Assembly: GCF_003034845.1 (NCBI RefSeq)
Contig: NZ_PZKC01000004.1
Coordinates: forward strand, 124,001 to 188,000
Direction: 5' to 3'
Length of the DNA: 64,000 bases
DNA from: Pseudothauera lacus
GTDB lineage: Bacteria; Pseudomonadota; Gammaproteobacteria; Burkholderiales; Rhodocyclaceae
Shown here piece after piece: positions 37,503 through 63,996 of this stretch. The number at the start of each line of letters is the position of its first letter. The first letter of the stretch is position 1. The notes under the pieces were generated by a model. It had not been told where the DNA came from, did no database searches, and saw only the letters and a program-made list of their open reading frames with translations. The translations under genes and the position numbers were made by a program.

Positions 37503-38156
37503 TCAGCGGGGCTTGTGCTCGCTTTGTGCGGCAGCGGGGGGCTCGTGCTCTTCCTCCCAGCCGGTGATCATCGCCTTCACATGGGCGAAGATGGTGTGGC
37601 CGGTGGTGGTCAGATAGACGTGGGCGATGAAGAACACCAGCATCATGAAGGCGCCGATGGTGTGCACGGTGGCGACGATCTCCAGGGTCAGCCAGCGGTC
37701 GATGCCGAAGTCCTTCCAGTAGGCGTAGAACAGGTAGAACAGTCCCGAACCCCAGATGATCGGCGAAACCATCGACAGCAGGGCGAGATAGGCCAGGCGC
37801 TGCAGCGGGTTGTGCTTTTTCTGCGGGGTCTTGCGGTAGGGGTGGGGTGCGCCGCGGAAAATCCCCCAGGCGTAGTAGCGGATCATCGCGTCCACCTTCT
37901 GCAGGGTGGGGATGTACTGCCGCCATTCCCCGGTAGTGAACTGCCAGAAGATGGTGAATGCCCACAGGATGAGCAGCGACCACGCCGCCAGAGTGTGCAG
38001 CTCGACGGCGCGCTGGAAGCCGAAGATCTCGTAGGTGCCGGCGATCTCGAAGCCGGTGAGCATCATGAAGATCACCAGCGCGGCCTGCGACCAGTGCCAG
38101 AAGCGCTCATAGCGCTTGTATACGTAGAAGCGATGGACGGTGTGCTGTTCGCTCAT
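37503..38156 (-). CDS. Membrane cytochrome b, quinone-linked electron carrier
   Basis: This 217-residue protein belongs to the cytochrome b561/Ni-Fe-hydrogenase b family. It has four to five helices and heme-ligand histidines: one in YERFWHWSQAALVIFMMLTG, one in VELHTLAAWSLLILWAF, and later ones in TVHTIGAFMMLVFFIAHVYL. A Lys/Pro cytoplasmic loop (GAPHPYRKTPQKKHNPLQR) separates the two helix pairs. It is the last gene of the operon Rieske–octaheme cytochrome–cytochrome b, with a 2-nt gap to the octaheme gene. It would exchange electrons between ubiquinol and the periplasmic multiheme partner. Confidence 0.87.
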   Translation of the reverse strand: MSEQHTVHRFYVYKRYERFWHWSQAALVIFMMLTGFEIAGTYEIFGFQRAVELHTLAAWSLLILWAFTIFWQFTTGEWRQYIPTLQKVDAMIRYYAWGIFRGAPHPYRKTPQKKHNPLQRLAYLALLSMVSPIIWGSGLFYLFYAYWKDFGIDRWLTLEIVATVHTIGAFMMLVFFIAHVYLTTTGHTIFAHVKAMITGWEEEHEPPAAAQSEHKPR

Positions 38157-38158
38157 GT

Positions 38159-39754
38159 TCAGTTCCCCCGCTTGTGGGTGAGGATGCGGATGGTGGCATG
38201 CACCAGCACGCCGAGGAGGGCGCCGATGACGGCCAGCCAGCCGAGGGTGCGTACCAACTGGTTGCCGTCCTGGCCCGGCACGTAGATCCCCGGTACGCCG
38301 GCGAGGCGGCCGCTGGCGCTGTGGCATTCCTGGCAGGCCACGGCCTGCTCGGCGGGCGCCACCATATGGGTGATCGGCCACAGCATGCGGGTGTCGACGA
38401 AATCGAAGTTGCCGCTGAACTGGCGGTTATTTGCTTCGGCGCCGGCCTGCAGGGCCTTCGGCCAGTCGAAGTTGAGCCAGAAGGCGGTGTCGCTGCCTTC
38501 CAGAGCGTGGGTGGCGACGTGCGGCACGAGGAGCTGGCGGTGCTCGACATCGTAGGGCTGGCGGCCGTGGAAGAGCTTGAACGGCCAGATGCGTGCACGC
38601 GGATCGCGGGCGTCGCCATGGAAGGTGTTGATGGGCACCGGCGCGCTGGGGTCGATCACCGTATCGAGGGTGGAATAGGTGATTTCGCCGTTGAACCACT
38701 GGTAGTGCGGCACCACGTTTTCGCCGAGGATGAAGCTGCCCTTCTTGCTGTCGTAGATGACGTGGCCGTCATCGTCCTTGAGCTGGAAGGGCTTGCCATC
38801 GGCGTTCATGCGCCCGGCCTCCGACCAGTCCCAGGCCATCTTGGTGGGCACGCCGCCACGCGAGAAGGCCGGGATGTGGCAGGTCTGGCAGGCCAGCGTG
38901 TCGGTGTGCGCGTTGAGACGTTCGGCGTGCAGGAAACTCTGCTTGTGCGGCTTGTCGCCGTGGCAGGACTGGCAGGTGGCGGGGTTGCGGTCGCTATGCT
39001 GGCCGCGGCGGATGGGGCCGTGGGGGTCGGCGGCGGTCATCGCGATACGGCTGCCGGGGACGACGTGCTCCTCGGCCTTGTGGCATTCGCTGCAGGCGAA
39101 GTTGAGTCCGTCGGCGGCCATGTGCACGTCGAGTTCGCGCGGTGGCGCGTTGAGCGATGAATCGAGGTCGCCGTGCTTGACGCCGTCACCGCCGCCGCCG
39201 GCGTAGTGGCAACTGCCGCAGGTCTCGCGCGAGGTCGCGCCGACGTGCTGGGCTACCCACTCGAGGTCGGTGGCGTCGACGAACTTGCCCGACTTGGGGG
39301 GATACTCCATGCGTTCGTAGGCGGGGTGGCCGGCGAGGCCGGCGAGCTTGCGGTAGCCGCCGGTGTTGTGGCAGGCCAGGCAATCGACCTTTTCCTCGGC
39401 GGTGAAGTCGAAGCTGTCGTCCTGCCAGCCGTAGCCGACGTGACAGGACTGGCAGAAGGCCTGGTTGGGACGGTCGCCGATGCAGAAGGCGTTGATCATC
39501 GTGCGCTTGCCCAGGCGTGTGCCGTCGAGCGGGTTCTCGTACTCCCAGGTCCAGTGGCGCGTGGCCATGACCTGCTTGGCGGCTTCGGTGTGACAGGACA
39601 GGCAGGCGCGGGTGACCTCCTCGCCGCTGCTGAAGGGGCCCTGCAGTTCCTTGAATTTGGTGTGGTCGGCAGTGGCTGCCAGTGCGGCGCTGCCCAGCAC
39701 GCACAGCGCTGCGCCCAGCACCAGCCTGACGGCTTGCCGGATGACGGTTCTCAT
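38159..39754 (-). CDS. Octaheme c-type cytochrome, tetrathionate reductase family, membrane-anchored
   Basis: This 531-residue protein has a Sec signal peptide, eight CxxCH motifs (CLSCH, CQSCH, CLACH, CGSCH, CSECH, CQSCH, CQTCH, CQECH) and a C-terminal helix (LGWLAVIGALLGVLVHATI). The spacing of the hemes and segments such as TRHWTWEYENPLDGTRLGKR fit the Shewanella OTR type. Those enzymes reduce tetrathionate in vitro and also nitrite and hydroxylamine, so the natural substrate is open. The C-terminal anchor is not part of soluble OTR and would hold the protein at the membrane beside the cytochrome b. The gene lies 50 nt after the Rieske gene, under the same predicted sigma-54 promoter. Confidence 0.9.
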   Translation of the reverse strand: MRTVIRQAVRLVLGAALCVLGSAALAATADHTKFKELQGPFSSGEEVTRACLSCHTEAAKQVMATRHWTWEYENPLDGTRLGKRTMINAFCIGDRPNQAFCQSCHVGYGWQDDSFDFTAEEKVDCLACHNTGGYRKLAGLAGHPAYERMEYPPKSGKFVDATDLEWVAQHVGATSRETCGSCHYAGGGGDGVKHGDLDSSLNAPPRELDVHMAADGLNFACSECHKAEEHVVPGSRIAMTAADPHGPIRRGQHSDRNPATCQSCHGDKPHKQSFLHAERLNAHTDTLACQTCHIPAFSRGGVPTKMAWDWSEAGRMNADGKPFQLKDDDGHVIYDSKKGSFILGENVVPHYQWFNGEITYSTLDTVIDPSAPVPINTFHGDARDPRARIWPFKLFHGRQPYDVEHRQLLVPHVATHALEGSDTAFWLNFDWPKALQAGAEANNRQFSGNFDFVDTRMLWPITHMVAPAEQAVACQECHSASGRLAGVPGIYVPGQDGNQLVRTLGWLAVIGALLGVLVHATIRILTHKRGN

Positions 39755-39804: not shown

Positions 39805-40395
39805 TCAGCCGGTGCCGCTGCCGTCGTCGCCGATCAGCAGGCTGGTGGCACTGAGCCAGGTGTGTGGGGGTATTTCCAGATTTGTCGGTGCGGGCTGGTT
39901 CTTGAAAACGCGGCCGGCGAGATCGAAGATGGAACCGTGGCAGGGGCACAGAAAACCGCCCGGCCAGTCCTCGCCGAGACCGCTGCTGGCGCCTGGGCGG
40001 ATGCGTTCGGTGGGCGAGCACCCGAGGTGGGTGCAGATGCCGATCACCACGAGGTATTCGGGATTGATCGCGCGGGCGCGGTTGACGGTGTAGTCAGGTT
40101 GCAGCGAAGCGCTCGAGGCCGGGTCGGCGAGGCGGTCTTCGTGGCCTTCTAGGGCGGCGAGCATCTCGGCCGTGCGGCGCAGCACCCACACCGGCTTGCC
40201 GCGCCACTCGATGGTCATCATCTCGCCGGGTTGCAACTTGCCGACATCCGCTTCCACAGGGGCGCCGGCAGCGCGTGCGCGCGCGGAAGGGGTAAGGCTG
40301 GCGACGAACGGCACGGCGGTAGCCGCGGCGGCAACGACGCCGGCTCCGGAGGTGGCGAGCAGCAGGCGGCGGCGTTCGCAGGCATGGTCGGACAT
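39805..40395 (-). CDS. Rieske iron-sulfur protein, bc1 type, outside a pet operon
   Basis: This 196-residue protein has an N-terminal twin-arginine-like signal/anchor (ERRRLLLATSGAGVVAAAAT). The Rieske 2Fe-2S ligands lie in CTHLGC and CPCHGS (about residues 119–155), with the flanking sequence expected of the bc1 complex subunit PetA. There is no cytochrome b6/bc1 or cytochrome c1 gene beside it. It is instead the first gene of an operon with the octaheme cytochrome and a b-type cytochrome. The probable job is quinol oxidation or electron hand-over in that set; a second copy for the true bc1 complex should exist elsewhere (inference). It is preceded by a terminator-bearing leader. Confidence 0.9.
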   Translation of the reverse strand: MSDHACERRRLLLATSGAGVVAAAATAVPFVASLTPSARARAAGAPVEADVGKLQPGEMMTIEWRGKPVWVLRRTAEMLAALEGHEDRLADPASSASLQPDYTVNRARAINPEYLVVIGICTHLGCSPTERIRPGASSGLGEDWPGGFLCPCHGSIFDLAGRVFKNQPAPTNLEIPPHTWLSATSLLIGDDGSGTG

Positions 40396-40419: not shown

Positions 40420-40447
40420 AAAAAAAAACGGGCATCGGCGATGCCCG
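40420..40447 (-). terminator. Intrinsic terminator inside the Rieske leader
   Basis: Read on the minus strand, CGGGCATC and GATGCCCG pair around a 3-nt loop and run into nine T. It ends 25 nt before the Rieske ATG, leaving no room for another promoter. Transcription must pass it for the operon to be expressed. Confidence 0.82.
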
Positions 40448-40566
40448 CCCTGAAAAATGAAGCGGGAGTCTGGAGGGAGGAGATACCGGTAACGGTTGCT
40501 GTGGGGTTGGGGGGAACGTCGAGGTGACGTTACAGCAACCGCAGGGCTTTGCGACTCCCGCTTCTG
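40420..40566 (-). ncRNA. Candidate structured leader/attenuator or small RNA
   Basis: The segment between the predicted sigma-54 promoter and the terminator can fold as nested stems. A 12-bp perfect outer stem joins 40553–40564 with 40459–40470. A 10-bp stem joins 40532–40541 with 40493–40502. A 6-bp hairpin (AACGTC/GACGTT) lies at 40515–40531. The predicted start site is 2–5 nt from the base of the outer stem, and the terminator follows it directly. This gives an RNA of about 147 nt. No known riboswitch class is recognised. Either the RNA controls read-through into the Rieske operon or it is a free small RNA; the sequence does not decide between them. Confidence 0.5.
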
Positions 40567-40577
40567 ACACAGGTGTA

Positions 40578-40593
40578 CTCAAGGAGCGTGCCA
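40578..40593 (-). promoter_or_regulatory. Sigma-54-type promoter of the Rieske–octaheme operon
   Basis: TGGCAC (40593–40588), 5 nt and TTGAG (40582–40578) match the -24/-12 pattern TGGCAC-N5-TTGCA except for A in place of C in the -12 element. The same deviation is present in the cyd-side promoter. The regulator encoded upstream is a sigma-54 activator. Confidence 0.62.
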
Positions 40594-40691
40594 GCTTTCT
40601 CCGGATGTCCGGTTGTTTCCGCAAGACGCTGAAACAAAAGAACTAATACGGAAGGTTGAGACCTTGGCGGATTGTCGCTGCTCTGCCGTTG

Positions 40692-40774: not shown

Positions 40775-42088
<1,314 letters not shown>

Positions 42089-42100
42089 GGCTGTCGCCTC

Positions 42101-42146
42101 TGGCAGTCGATGGCAGTGGTGCTGCCACATTCTGTCGCCGTGGCAG
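42101..42146. promoter_or_regulatory. Cluster of TGGCAG/CTGCCA half sites between fisR and cydP
   Basis: TGGCAG occurs at 42101, 42111 and 42141 and CTGCCA at 42122. TGGCAG-N5-CTGCCA (42111–42127) is a perfect 6-bp inverted repeat. The group lies 78–123 bp upstream of the -24 element before cydP and over the start region of fisR, so it could serve both activation and autoregulation. Confidence 0.6.
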
Positions 42147-42223: not shown

Positions 42224-42239
42224 TGGCACGGCAATTGAA
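42224..42239 (+). promoter_or_regulatory. Sigma-54-type promoter of the cyd operon
   Basis: TGGCAC, 5 nt and TTGAA match the -24/-12 consensus apart from A for C in the -12 part. It lies 86 nt before the cydP ATG. Confidence 0.62.
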
Positions 42240-42324
42240 TAGGGGGTGTGGCACGGCTGGCATGCACTGGTGATTCAGCGTCGAGCATGGCCGTGCGTCA
42301 CAAGCATCAACCCCGGAGCCAACA

Positions 42325-42534
42325 ATGAGTCCGACGGACCACAGACTGCTGCGCGAAATCGTGGTGGTCATCCTCATCAAGCTGGTGCTGCTCACCGGCC
42401 TGTGGTGGGCCTTCATCCGTGACCACAAGGTCAGCGTGGATGGGCATGCCATGGCCGCGCACGCCTCGGCGGGTGAGGCCGGGGGCACCCCCATCCCTGA
42501 CGGAGAGATCGATGGTCACAGAAGAACTCGTTGA
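42325..42534 (+). CDS. cydP: Cytochrome oxidase small subunit CydP
   Basis: This 69-residue protein fits the CydP family of single-helix proteins encoded before cydA in betaproteobacteria. It has the start DHRLLREIVVVILIKLVLLT, continuing GLWWAFIRDHKVSV, followed by a short periplasmic tail. In Neisseria, such a protein supports bd-type oxidase function. The frame overlaps cydA by 23 bp, so translation is coupled. It is the first gene after the predicted sigma-54 promoter. Confidence 0.82.
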   Translation: MSPTDHRLLREIVVVILIKLVLLTGLWWAFIRDHKVSVDGHAMAAHASAGEAGGTPIPDGEIDGHRRTR

Positions 42535-59711: not shown

Positions 59712-61455
59712 CTTCGATGAATTCCTCGCGATTGCGCCCGTGCTGCTTGGCCCGGTAAAGGGCCGCATCGGCCCGCGACATGCAGGCTTCGGGCTGCGGG
59801 TCGGCTGCGGTCAGGGTGGTGACGCCGATGCTGACCCTGATCCCGACTGTCTCATCCTCGGCCGCCAGCGGCTGTTGCGCAAGCTGTTCCCTGATGCGGC
59901 GGGCAACGGTCATCGCGGCCTGGGCGTCGGTGCCTGGGAGCAGTACGGCGAACTCCTCGCCGCCGAGGCGGGCGGGCAGGTCGCATTCACGCAGGCAACT
60001 GCGCAGGATGGTGCTGAAGTGGCAGAGCGCGCGATCGCCGAACTGGTGTCCCCAGCGGTCGTTGATGCGCTTGAAGTGGTCGAGGTCGAGCATCATCAGG
60101 GCCGACGGTGCCTGCCAGTGGCGGCGGATGCGCGCCAGTTCGTGGGCCAGGCGCTGCACGAAGACGCGGCGGTTGCTCAGCGTGGTGAGCGCGTCGGTGG
60201 TGGCCAGGCGCAGCAGGTCGGCCTCCATGCGCTTGCTCTCGCCGATGTCCTGCATGATGCCCACTGCGCGCAGCGGCCGGCCGCAGCCGTCGCGTTGCAG
60301 GACCTTGCCCGCGGCCAGGGTCCATACCCAGCCGCCGCCAAGGTGGCGCAGGCGGTGGGTGAAGCGGAACCCCGGGCTGAGGCCGCGGAAATGGCTGTTG
60401 AGGGCATTCAGCGCCGCGCCGAGGTCTTCGGGGTGGGCTCGGGTGAGCCAGCCCTGGGCGTCCACCGCGAGTACGCCGGCGCTTTCCCCGAGCATTGCCG
60501 CCCAGCGGGTGTCCACCGTGATCTGCCGGCGGGTGATGTCCCAGTCCCACATGCCCAGCTCGGCGCCGGCGAGCGCCAGGGCCATGCGCTCCTCGGATTC
60601 GGCAAGGCGCTCTTCGAGCTGGCTGCGGGCGATGGCATGGCGCATCGCCCGCACCAGGTCGGCGGCGACGAGGCGGCTCTTGAACAGGTAGTCCTGGGCG
60701 CCGGCGGCGAGGGCCTCAAGGGCAAAGTCGGAATCGTCGTTGCCGGTGAGGACGACGATGGGGGTGCGGCCGACCAGCGCACGCATGCGCTCGATGCTGT
60801 GCAGCCCGGAGGCGTCGGGCAGGCCGAGGTCGAGCAGCACCAGATCGGGGAGACGGTCGCCGAGCTGGGCGGAGACCCCGCCCAGGGTTTCGCTGCGGAC
60901 AAGTTCGAACTCCCCCTGCCAGGCCTTGCGCAGGGCGATGGCAACCAGTTCCGCGTCGGCGGCTTCGTCGTCGACCAGCAGTATTCGTGTGTTACGTGGC
61001 GGGGTCGCCGGCGGCCGCGCCCGCGGGGGCAGTTCGGCCTGTTGCAGGTATTGCCTTACCAGTGCCAGCAGGGCGGAAGAGAACAGGCGCAGGTCGGCCT
61101 GCTTGGTCAGGTAACCGCGGGCGCCGCCGGCGCTGGCGCGGTCCATGTCGAGTTCGGCGGACGAGGTGCTGAGGACGACTACCGGGATCTGCCCGCAGCC
61201 CTCCTCGCGGGCGAGCGCAGCGAGGAATTCGTGACCGTCCATGCGTGGCATGTTGAGGTCGAGGAGGATCAGGTCCGGCAATGCCGCAGAGGCGTTGCGG
61301 CGGCGGCGCAGTGCGTCGAGGGCCTCGATGCCGTCGCTGCAGTGCGCTACCGTGGCGGCGAACTGCGCGTCACGGAGGATCTTGCGGACCAGGAAGGCGT
61401 CGGCCTGCTCGTCATCGACGAGCAGGATGTCCAGATTCGTGCTCGCCGCCTTCAT
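59686..61455 (-). CDS. Response regulator with two receivers, PAS and GGDEF
   Basis: This 589-residue protein has two receivers in tandem (LLVDDEQADAFLVRKIL with LILLDLNMPRMDG; LLVDDEAADAELVAIAL with LVLLDLGLPDASG). PAS (about 285–410) and GGDEF (LPARLGGEEFAVLL) follow. The cyclase motif is GGEEF, active. The two receivers could integrate different kinases. It starts 4 bp inside the ANTAR gene stop. Confidence 0.9.
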   Translation of the reverse strand: MKAASTNLDILLVDDEQADAFLVRKILRDAQFAATVAHCSDGIEALDALRRRRNASAALPDLILLDLNMPRMDGHEFLAALAREEGCGQIPVVVLSTSSAELDMDRASAGGARGYLTKQADLRLFSSALLALVRQYLQQAELPPRARPPATPPRNTRILLVDDEAADAELVAIALRKAWQGEFELVRSETLGGVSAQLGDRLPDLVLLDLGLPDASGLHSIERMRALVGRTPIVVLTGNDDSDFALEALAAGAQDYLFKSRLVAADLVRAMRHAIARSQLEERLAESEERMALALAGAELGMWDWDITRRQITVDTRWAAMLGESAGVLAVDAQGWLTRAHPEDLGAALNALNSHFRGLSPGFRFTHRLRHLGGGWVWTLAAGKVLQRDGCGRPLRAVGIMQDIGESKRMEADLLRLATTDALTTLSNRRVFVQRLAHELARIRRHWQAPSALMMLDLDHFKRINDRWGHQFGDRALCHFSTILRSCLRECDLPARLGGEEFAVLLPGTDAQAAMTVARRIREQLAQQPLAAEDETVGIRVSIGVTTLTAADPQPEACMSRADAALYRAKQHGRNREEFIEDDREHKLA

Positions 61456-62096
61456 CTGCCCTCCTTCTCCTCCTTGCTGTCTGCCCTGCGGCGGCTGGCG
61501 CTCTCAAGCAGGCGGCGGGCATGGGTGCTGATCGCAACGCGATGGCGGCGGGCGTCCAGGCGCAGGCGCTCGAAGGCTTCTCGCTCGTCCAGGGCATGGC
61601 GCTGCATGAGCACGCCAATGGCCATGCTGGTGCAGCGGTCGCTCTGCAGGGCGTGCTCGATCTGGCGCTGGTTTTCGCGCAACTGGCGGATGTCTTCGCC
61701 GCGCGCGAGGGCTCCGCGTATCACCGGGACGATCTGTCCGACCTCGATCGGCTTGAGCAGGTAGGACAGCGCGCCACAGTGGATGGCGGCCTGCACGACG
61801 GTGTCGTCGGCGTTGCCGGAGAGCATGATGAAGGGCGTGCTGGCGTTGCTCCGCAGCCACTCGGCGAACTTGATGCCGCTCATGCCTGGCAGGCTGACGT
61901 CGAGGATGGCGAGGTCAAAGGGCGCCTGCCCGCCGACCGCATCCATTGCGGACAGGGCGTCCTCGGCCTCCCAGACCTCGAAGCCTGCCCTAACCATGCC
62001 GCGGGCGAGCGTGCGGCGGATGACGAATTCGTCCTCGACCAGCAGGATGCGAGCCGCTGCGGGAGAGGCGGGTACTGAAGCAGTGGAAGCGGTCAT
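61452..62096 (-). CDS. ANTAR-type response regulator
   Basis: This 214-residue protein has a receiver (ILLVEDEFVIRRTLARGM; LAILDVSLPGMSG; LLKPIE) and a C-terminal ANTAR domain. The latter is AIGVLMQRHALDEREAFERL followed by RLDARRHRVAISTHARRLLE (about 160–210). ANTAR proteins bind hairpins in nascent RNA and prevent termination. In this window a strong hairpin-plus-terminator leader exists at 40420–40566, but the link is unproven. ATG at 62096; AGGAG lies 12 nt before. Confidence 0.9.
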   Translation of the reverse strand: MTASTASVPASPAAARILLVEDEFVIRRTLARGMVRAGFEVWEAEDALSAMDAVGGQAPFDLAILDVSLPGMSGIKFAEWLRSNASTPFIMLSGNADDTVVQAAIHCGALSYLLKPIEVGQIVPVIRGALARGEDIRQLRENQRQIEHALQSDRCTSMAIGVLMQRHALDEREAFERLRLDARRHRVAISTHARRLLESASRRRADSKEEKEGR

Positions 62097-62169
62097 CGAT
62101 ATCGTCAGCTCCTTCCGAGAGCGCGGTGGTTGATCATGGCGGAGAGTGTCGGCGCCTGGCAAGCGCCGT

Positions 62170-63996
62170 TCAGACCTTGAACTGGCCAGCGAGGCGCTCG
62201 ACCGTGCGGGCAATCTCGCTGACCTGAAGGCTGGCGCCGTGGCTCTGTTCGGAGCTGGCAGCGTTGCGTTCGGCCATCTGCGCGATCTCCTCGACGGTGC
62301 GCGCGACTTCGCGCGCGGCAGTGGACTGCTCCTTGAGGGTGGCGCGGATCTGGCGCACGGCCTCGACTGCCTCCTCGGTGCGGTGCTGGATGTCCGCCAC
62401 CGAACGGCCCGCGCCATGCGCTGCGTGCACGCCTTCATCGACGCGGGTGACACCGGTTTCCATCTCGCCGACGGCGTTGCCGGTGCGCGCCTGGATCTGC
62501 GCCACCATGTCGCCTATCACCACGGTGGCTGCCGCCGTACGCTCGGCGAGTTTGCGTACCTCGTCAGCGACGACGGCGAAGCCGCGGCCGGATTCGCCCG
62601 CACGTGCGGCCTCGATGGCGGCGTTGAGGGCGAGCAGGTTGGTCTGCTCGGCGATCTCCTTGATGGTCGCGACAATGTTGCTGATCTCGATGGAGATGCC
62701 CTTGAGGGCGCCGAGGCTGTCGGCAGCGTGGCTGACAGCCTCGGCAATGCGCGAGATCTGTCCGGCAGCGTCGTGGACCACCCGGGCTCCCGCGTGCGCG
62801 GCATCGCCGGCTGCCGAAGTCGATTCATGGGCGGTCACCGCACTCTCTTCAAGGTGGTCAATCGATACCGAGAGCTGCTCGATGGTGGCCGCCATCGTCG
62901 CCGCAGCGCTCGATTGCCGCACCGCGCCGGAGGCGGTGCTGCTGCTGGCGTCGACCAGGTCGCTGGCGGCGCTCGCCAGCCGTCCGGCGCCGTGGTTCAT
63001 CTCGAAGGCGATCTCGTACAGGCGGTTGCGCATGATCTGCAGGTTGTTGAATACGCTGCCGATCTCGTCGCCCTTGCCGGGCGGGACGTGGGTGCGCAGT
63101 TCGCCGCCGGCGATCTGCCGCGTTACCTCGCAGACGCGCTGCAGACGGCGGTTCTGCTGGCCGACGATGAACCACAGCAGTCCGAACAGCGCCGCGCTCA
63201 GCAGCAGTGAGGTGGCAAGGGTGCGCAACGCCGGACCGTGGATGCGTGCGGCCAGGCTGTCCAGCGGAACGCTGGCCTCGATGACGCCGCGTACGTCGCC
63301 GATCTTCCAGTCGCGCCGCGGCGAGTCGGGGTGGGCATTGTGACAGTCAACACAGTTGGCCTCGGTCATCACGTCGGCCCGTGCCAGACGCAGCACCGGG
63401 CGTCCATGCAGGGTGTCCACGCGCGTGTAGGTGGCGGCCGGATTGCTGCGCAGTTGCGCGAGGGCGGCGCGGCCGAAGTCGTCGATACGGGCGAGGGCGT
63501 CGTTGCGGAAGGCAAACGGCGCGTCGCTGTACAGACGCAGTGCAGTGGCACCGCCATCGCCGCCCATCTCCGCGAGCGCACGCATCATGCTCGCCGGCAG
63601 CGGGATGCCGTGCGGATCGCCGTCGTAGTCGTGGGTGAGCTGCAGCCCTTGTGCCGCGGCCTTCGGAACAATGGCCCTGACGTAGAACTGGCGGGCGTTG
63701 CGGGCGCCCTCGATCATCGCCGCGGCGGTGTTCTCGCCGGCCTCGGCGAGCACCTCGTCCTTCAGGATCAGCATGTTGACGGTGGCGACAGCGCCGATCA
63801 GCAGACCTCCGGCGAGGGTGGGGAGGAGCACCTTGGCACGCAGCGACAGATCGCCGAAGCGCCGTCCGAGTTCCTGCAATGCGCCGGAAACCCCTGGGGC
63901 GATGACGTAGCCGCGCCGCAGGCGGTGGCCGCTGCCTTCCCGCATGGCGGCGTAGAGCGCTTCGGCGGCGCTGACTTCGGCCGTCGTCGGTTTCAT
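62170..63996 (-). CDS. Methyl-accepting chemotaxis protein with c-type heme sensor domain (DUF3365-like)
   Basis: This 608-residue chemoreceptor has TM1 ([20 protein letters not shown], about 55–75) and a periplasmic domain with [20 protein letters not shown] near residue 215, a CxxCH heme-c motif as in DUF3365/Tll0287-type sensors. TM2 ([20 protein letters not shown]) is followed by HAMP and the signalling hairpin with [20 protein letters not shown]. Redox state, oxygen or NO are possible signals. The ATG at 63996 is 4 nt from the window end, and an upstream start cannot be excluded. It leads the signalling operon. Confidence 0.87.

Follow-up and report, generated by a model that had tools for sequence, protein, structure and literature searches.

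A conserved structured RNA beside a FisR-like activator gene: probably both a gene leader and an undescribed regulatory small RNA

The qrr1 gene adjoins luxO, CrcZ of Pseudomonas is a CbrB/sigma54-dependent regulatory RNA, and the FisR regulon of Cupriavidus has reportedly been described by Li in 2017. According to the accessible text of the papers concerned, the Qrr sRNAs of Vibrio are driven by sigma54 together with the enhancer-binding protein LuxO (PMC10162802), and CrcZ acts on Hfq (PMC4063720). FisR is presented as a sulfide-responsive sigma54 activator, the Acinetobacter protein being described, in the part of that paper available, as without the cysteines used in Cupriavidus (PMC7315123); a review, similarly available in part, states that FisR cysteines form polysulfide bridges (PMC12170894). 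The S17/bdhR1 sRNAs (RF02278) of Betaproteobacteria are reported to carry conserved unpaired stretches for pairing with ribosome-binding sites and to have a processed 5´ end near a C/U-rich loop (PMC11722255, in its accessible text).

In the 64,000-nt stretch of Pseudothauera lacus DNA analysed here (the window), an earlier note had described a structured leader with an internal terminator on the minus strand (40566-40420), just before a Rieske gene. Its outer stem, apical hairpin and terminator with nine T are all present at these positions; the inner stem is present too, with 11 bp in the minimum free energy (MFE) fold in place of the 10 bp claimed. The outer stem, P1 (MFE fold), pairs GAAGCGGGAGTC (40553..40564, minus) perfectly over 12 bp with GACTCCCGCTTC (40459..40470, minus), which is followed by ATTTTTC, and closes the entire RNA. 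Inside it lie P2, with arms GCGGTTGCTGT (40532..40542, minus) and ACAGCAACCGT (40492..40502, minus) identified by MFE fold and covariation; the P3 hairpin AACGTCACCTCGACGTT (40515..40531, minus; fold and covariation), which has a conserved UCACCUC at the loop and, in the MFE structure, a 5-nt apical loop, ACCUC; and a conserved, unpaired C-rich segment, CCCCCCAACCCC (40503..40514, minus), complementary to the ccoS-linked element described below. The structured core of P1, P2, P3 and C-rich linker spans 40459..40564 (minus) and is delimited by fold, covariation and covariance models, the models themselves having been built with the window copy; the RNA is predicted to start at 40564-40567 (minus). 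The minus strand from 40566 to 40420 has an MFE of -64.8 kcal/mol compared with -35.75 ± 3.42 for 200 dinucleotide shuffles (z -8.49), none of which folded as well. Single-copy z values ranged from -7.5 to -1.1 across 31 cores, so several cores are not unusual by their own fold.

Compensatory changes, the absence of which the earlier note had held to count against the stems, were found among homologues well beyond controls. MAFFT misaligned P1 in some copies, and five of the 18 rows (G221, G273, G234, G147, G244r) were dropped. In the 13 well-aligned copies that were kept, 21 of 30 base pairs have two-sided changes that preserve pairing, compared with 5-12 in slid controls; 60 cells change on both sides (7-15 when slid) and 80.7% of cells pair (36-47% when slid). 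None of 500 shuffles reached the pairing percentage, the two-sided pair or cell counts or the covariation score, and 99 of 500 reached the number of further pair types, figures that are not probabilities because the sequences are related. For the seven copies of the genus itself, RNAalifold predicted 29 pairs, 10 with two-sided changes, and 11 of the 26 pairs of the named structure change on both sides (0-3 when slid). Across copies, the sequences of the P3 loop and of the CCAACCCC stretch remain similar while the stems vary, and the base of P1 is among the best-conserved parts. On this comparative evidence, the leader is a real, conserved RNA secondary structure.

The RNA matches no Rfam 15 family at the cut-off, in agreement with the earlier view that it belongs to no known riboswitch class. 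The best sub-threshold match, suhB/mmgR (RF00519; 22.4 bits, cut-off 41), covers only part of the RNA plus the terminator and was judged to be chance, as were sub-threshold matches to ylbH, L20 leader and ar7. No earlier description was found in the literature searched, which consisted of titles and the starts of abstracts, with subscription papers mostly outside it.

A sigma54-type promoter, TGGCACGCTCCTTGA (40579..40593, minus), matches TGGCAYRNNNNTTGM exactly and precedes the RNA; both this promoter and the adjoining FisR-like activator gene had been overlooked in the earlier note. Exact matches to TGGCAYRNNNNTTGM number two in the 64 kb, against 0.40 expected, and at least two were present in 7 of 100 shuffles; with one mismatch there are nine sites, against 8.7 expected. 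All seven copies in the genus (g1) have a sigma54-type site 13-14 nt 5´ of P1. An inverted repeat seen by eye 5´ of the promoter, TTGTTTC-N11-GAAACAA (40613..40637, minus), is a possible activator site; in G005 and G003 only a TTTGTTT half is visible. The other exact TGGCAYRNNNNTTGM match (42224..42238, plus) is divergent and faces the cytochrome bd genes. The whole fold of the bd leader (42251-42511) is not unusual (z -0.86). Within the segment from this site onwards (42224-42512, plus), an 8-bp stem closes the first 46 nt of the leader in the MFE structure, and by eye we noted a short ORF in the leader, MSPTDHRLLREIVVVILIKL..., which we take to be CydP-like.

The activator gene (40775..42130, minus) encodes PAS, AAA+ and Fis-type helix-turn-helix (HTH) domains by Pfam (PF00158, 3e-67; also PF08448 and HTH_8), and both CX10CX6C and GAFTGA are found in all 30 family FisR homologues examined, the window protein included. 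Its cysteines are C53, C64 and C71 when numbered from an internal start, MSTDTR (42088); presumably these residues and their CX10CX6C spacing correspond to the sensor cysteines of Cupriavidus FisR. Judged by its sequence, the protein has the features of a FisR sulfide sensor, namely a sigma54 AAA+ domain with GAFTGA, a Fis HTH and the cysteine spacing, and it most likely activates the RNA promoter.

The association of promoter, RNA and fisR extends beyond the window. A FisR protein search matched 125 of 297 family genomes at E 1e-100, and downstream DNA was taken for 70 matches, mostly the best ones (three of the stretches were shorter than 330 nt). Within 330 nt 3´ of fisR, a strict promoter pattern occurred at 33 of 70 loci, compared with 6 of 2000 random 330-nt windows from other loci, and a loose pattern at 41 of 70 compared with 93 of 2000. 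At 26 of the 41 loose-promoter loci, the P1 stem reached at least the 99th percentile of 400 random positions, which were drawn from the studied loci, RNA loci among them. P1 fell below this percentile in G234, G334 and the fisR-side copies of G002 and G003. The loose pattern was absent within 330 nt of fisR at 29 of 70 loci. Of the genomes concerned, G147 carries the RNA at a distance of 248 nt together with a variant site, TGGTACGCCGATTGC, whereas in G316 and G211 the RNA lies elsewhere.

By hand count there are 37 copies in 33 genomes of 10 genera, all in one family (g1 7, g34 1, g107 6, g27 2, g49 6, g6 1, g100 5, g50 1, g42 1, g20 7). Thirty adjoin fisR within the 70 loci examined (25 of the 26 loci that pass the stem threshold, plus G002b, G003, G234, G334 and G147), and the other seven came from further searches. 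For the g20, g49, G334, G054 and G046 copies, homology is suggested by position, promoter and P1; the inner structure and C-rich motif were counted in 13 of the 37 copies. Left out of the count were G030, G010, G296, G265, G263, G175, G132, G109, G298, G123 and a second G234 fisR locus, all with a loose site and a stem below the 99th percentile, as well as G134, which has a stem that passes and a poor site, TGGCGCAATGGTCGT, its RNA lying outside the examined set.

A DNA search of 101 genomes matched eight, including the genus members G000, G001, G002, G003 and G005, and three weak ones from other genera seem due to chance; the seven genus copies have a similar fold. The covariance model R3 matched 17 sites in 15 of the 297 family genomes, one or two per genome. 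Built without the promoter, R3 found three new copies (G316, G273, G211), none of them anchored by fisR, and all three have a promoter at 13-14 nt, Rieske downstream and at least four T soon after P1. R3 missed the g20, g100 and some of the g49 copies. At the order level it matched G000 alone among 300 genomes, and at the class level (185 genomes) it matched G000 and G732; the latter (E 0.012) is without a sigma54 site and was judged false.

The RNA occurs in two kinds of gene context. In the window it precedes, on the minus strand, genes for a Rieske iron-sulfur protein (39805..40395; TIGR01416, 209.9 bits, cut-off 97.4), an octahaem cytochrome c of the tetrathionate reductase family (38159..39754; TIGR04315, 595.1 bits, cut-off 375) and a cytochrome b561-type membrane subunit (37503..38381; PF01292, 81.4 bits, cut-off 30.1). 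The divergent strand carries the cytochrome bd genes and genes for an MBL-fold hydrolase and a sulfide:quinone-reductase-like protein, the last two named from NCBIfam scores below the curated cut-offs. The window Rieske gene (39805-40395) is a second genomic copy, 71% identical to that at G000:C3:128721, and could be a sulfide-linked isoform.

Downstream of the 37 copies we found Rieske in 22, other genes in four and neither in 11. For G239, G187, G153 and G259 the Rieske gene was identified by eye from its opening codons, and the G147 match begins at residue 47. The four other genes are etfB in G001 and G002 (by eye), the octahaem gene in G038 and a NifX-like ORF in G244 (by eye). In G001, G002, G244 and G273, where Rieske lies apart from fisR, there is a copy at both places. 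The 11 stand-alone copies are those of seven g20 genomes, G221 and G046, one of the G273 copies and one of the G234 copies. All retain the promoter, P1 and a T run, with at least four consecutive T within 10 nt after P1 in 11 of 11. The seven g20 copies have T5-T8 after P1 and then a AACGCCAGC-type hairpin; in G024, the g20 genome read gene by gene, the next genes are convergent L33 and L28 (by eye). A convergent ORF also comes next in G221, G046 and the G273 copy, and the G234 copy, the weakest of the 11, is followed about 170 nt away by a co-directional ORF.

The ends of the Rieske-linked copies are mixed. Some have T runs, and G005, G003 and G002 have an added terminator (by eye); nine (G130, G031, G334, G054 and five of g100) have at most three consecutive T after P1 and no added terminator by eye, so that in these cases the RNA may be no more than a leader. 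By eye, we also noted that in g100 (L124 G153, L125 G292, L127 G259) the segment after the RNA (CACCTGAACAACGAGGTG in G153) could mask the Rieske ribosome-binding site in a hairpin. In the window, a separate intrinsic terminator, a GC hairpin with nine T (40420..40451, minus; terminator scan and relatives), lies just before the Rieske start codon as the earlier note had it, with 24 nt between the end of the T run at 40420 and the ATG at 40395. It is one of four sites found in 7 kb against 4.2 expected, and thus not above chance by the scan alone, but it is supported by terminators seen by eye at the equivalent position in both G002 copies, G003 and G005. A consensus scan detected no sigma70-like promoter between the RNA and Rieske. 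A pairing of the UUGCCC linker with a terminator arm, considered as an antiterminator, amounts to about 5 bp by eye and is not claimed.

The two contexts, together with the copies at both places, favour an RNA that has its own function and also serves as a leader. We think it somewhat likelier than even that a structured RNA driven by FisR and sigma54 is released as an sRNA and is also the read-through leader of the Rieske/octahaem operon. The sigma54 promoter would be activated by the FisR-like protein of polysulfide-sensor type encoded just upstream, and transcription would start at the base of P1. Most transcripts would stop right after P1 or at an added GC terminator, giving an sRNA of about 105-150 nt, and some would read through into the Rieske/octahaem cytochrome/b561 operon, for which the RNA would be the 5´ leader. 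The unpaired C-rich segments (UCACCUC at the P3 loop and CCCCAACCCC) would probably pair with G-rich ribosome-binding sites or with another sRNA; generic Shine-Dalgarno pairing gave shuffle p < 0.05 in three of 15 copies (G158, G270, G313), the other 12 staying above. The earlier note had offered conditional read-through or a free sRNA as alternatives, and both halves fit, with 22 of 37 copies before Rieske and 11 standing alone; as an interpretation, it is partly supported by these sequence patterns.

Alternatively, the RNA could be a leader that acts only in cis, attenuating the Rieske operon by way of a ligand, protein or sRNA that binds it and controls read-through or translation. Besides the 22 copies directly 5´ of Rieske and the window terminator 24 nt before the start codon, this reading is favoured by the extra copies that G001, G002, G244 and G273 carry before a Rieske gene separated from fisR. 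Yet the 11 copies that are without such an operon keep the promoter, P1 and T run, and no competing antiterminator is visible in the MFE or centroid fold of the window RNA, so we consider a cis-only role unlikely, if a serious contender. The stand-alone copies likewise argue against a stable 5´ structure or plain terminator that sets the Rieske transcript level with no regulatory partner. A strong 5´ stem can protect an mRNA, and the base of P1 is indeed among the best-conserved parts, but unpaired UCACCUC and CCAACCCC are conserved while the stems vary, and we regard this explanation as distinctly improbable.

That P1 is a long inverted repeat might suggest a DNA repeat, dispersed or otherwise, or a protein site instead of an RNA. 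With one copy in its own genome and one or two per matching genome, a sigma54 site before seven of seven genus copies and internal helices that covary, we see very little chance of this. The link to an ANTAR antiterminator that the earlier note had raised as speculative finds still less in its favour. An ORF for a response regulator with an ANTAR-like C-terminus (61452-62453, minus; by eye) does lie within the window, beside a gene for a GGDEF-like protein. However, ANTAR proteins bind two adjacent hexaloop hairpins, no such pair is present (the RNA loops are 5 and 3 nt in the MFE structure), the ORF is 20 kb away, and 30 of the 70 examined fisR loci have the RNA next to fisR; that the RNA is a target of this protein is scarcely credible.

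Returning to the RNA as a possible sRNA with partners of its own, we found a candidate for one of them beside ccoS. The exact complement of CCCCAACCCC in the leader RNA, GGGGTTGGGG, is part of a conserved, RNA-like element with an FNR box. G000 has 11 occurrences of GGGGTTGGGG, one of which is the opposite strand of the RNA itself. Another lies 3´ of ccoS in a segment that has an FNR-like box upstream and GTCTCTCTGTTGGGGTTGGGGGTGCG-hairpin-T8 at its end. This ccoS-linked element (FNR-like box, GTCTCTCTGTTGGGGTTGGGGGTGCG, hairpin and T run; G000:C23:61280-61750, L259 and L268, and L269-L297) was delineated by sequence search. All 30 genomes examined, from 8 genera, contain the segment, in G031 as a one-base variant, and an FNR-like box, matched by a loose pattern, lies 78-94 nt upstream in 29 genomes and 195 nt upstream in G046. 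Of 300 genomes searched at the order level, 8 contain the segment; two of these carry it with two mismatches, and one of them lies outside the family. No Rfam family matched at cut-off in the four loci scanned (SorY, 25.2 bits, cut-off 111).

The duplex energy of the RNA and the ccoS-linked element had shuffle p < 0.05 in six of seven g1 copies (G001r, p 0.93) and four of five g107 copies (G244r, p 0.33), compared with none of 22 other copies (g100, p 0.07-0.12); the copies are related rather than independent, and the search was post hoc with many tests. When 39 of 87 GGGGTTGGGG matches in five genomes were viewed for genes starting nearby (including 6 of 24 in G001, 6 of 35 in G002 and, in G000, all but the RNA itself, 10 of 11), none was convincing by eye except the ccoS-linked site. 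The built-in control for this pattern search yields nothing, since the pattern is identical when reversed. Some GGGGTTGGGG matches fall by eye within CCCCTCTCCC...GGGAGAGGGG-type repeats (L232, L237, L242, L247 (G002), L248 (G005)). In G001, CCCCAACCCC itself occurs in the first codons of a 507-aa ORF (L231) and 32 nt before an 86-aa ORF (L236), each a possible target of the ccoS-linked element.

These complementarities point to a possible functional link between the RNA and the ccoS-linked element that would be limited to some genera, and we treat it as a lead. The element occurs in g20 too, a genus whose sulfide-side RNA lacks any such complement, and must therefore have other roles. Tentatively, and with more doubt than confidence, we suggest that two undescribed RNAs, the FisR/sigma54 RNA with CCCCAACCCC and a ccoS-side FNR-box RNA with a near-invariant GUCUCUCUGUUGGGGUUGGGGG, pair and so link sulfide to oxygen sensing. 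One RNA would titrate the other, or the FNR-type RNA would control the Rieske leader, and respiratory enzymes would be rebalanced when sulfide poisons them. Such pairing, if true, would connect two respiratory control systems at the RNA level.

In summary, the RNA described here probably acts both as a gene leader and as a regulatory small RNA of an undescribed kind. A strongly covarying RNA that matches no Rfam 15 family at cut-off would join the sulfide-stress regulon, and its occurrence both as a stand-alone gene and as an mRNA leader provides natural replicates for how one RNA fills two roles. To our knowledge, the Qrr sRNAs are unrelated to it in sequence and fold, and we know of no P1-closed fold in CrcZ. 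The S17/bdhR1 sRNAs, according to the accessible text on them (PMC11722255), differ in having a sigmaA promoter and another gene location, and RF02278 is absent from the Rfam matches. The FisR regulons of Cupriavidus and Acinetobacter resemble this locus in placing a sulfide-induced sigma54 activator beside sulfur genes; they differ in their target operons, and the accessible part of the Acinetobacter paper mentions no RNA (PMC7315123). The Qrr sRNAs act in quorum sensing and have no role as the leader of a Rieske operon, but they share with the arrangement proposed here a sigma54-type promoter and an enhancer-binding protein.
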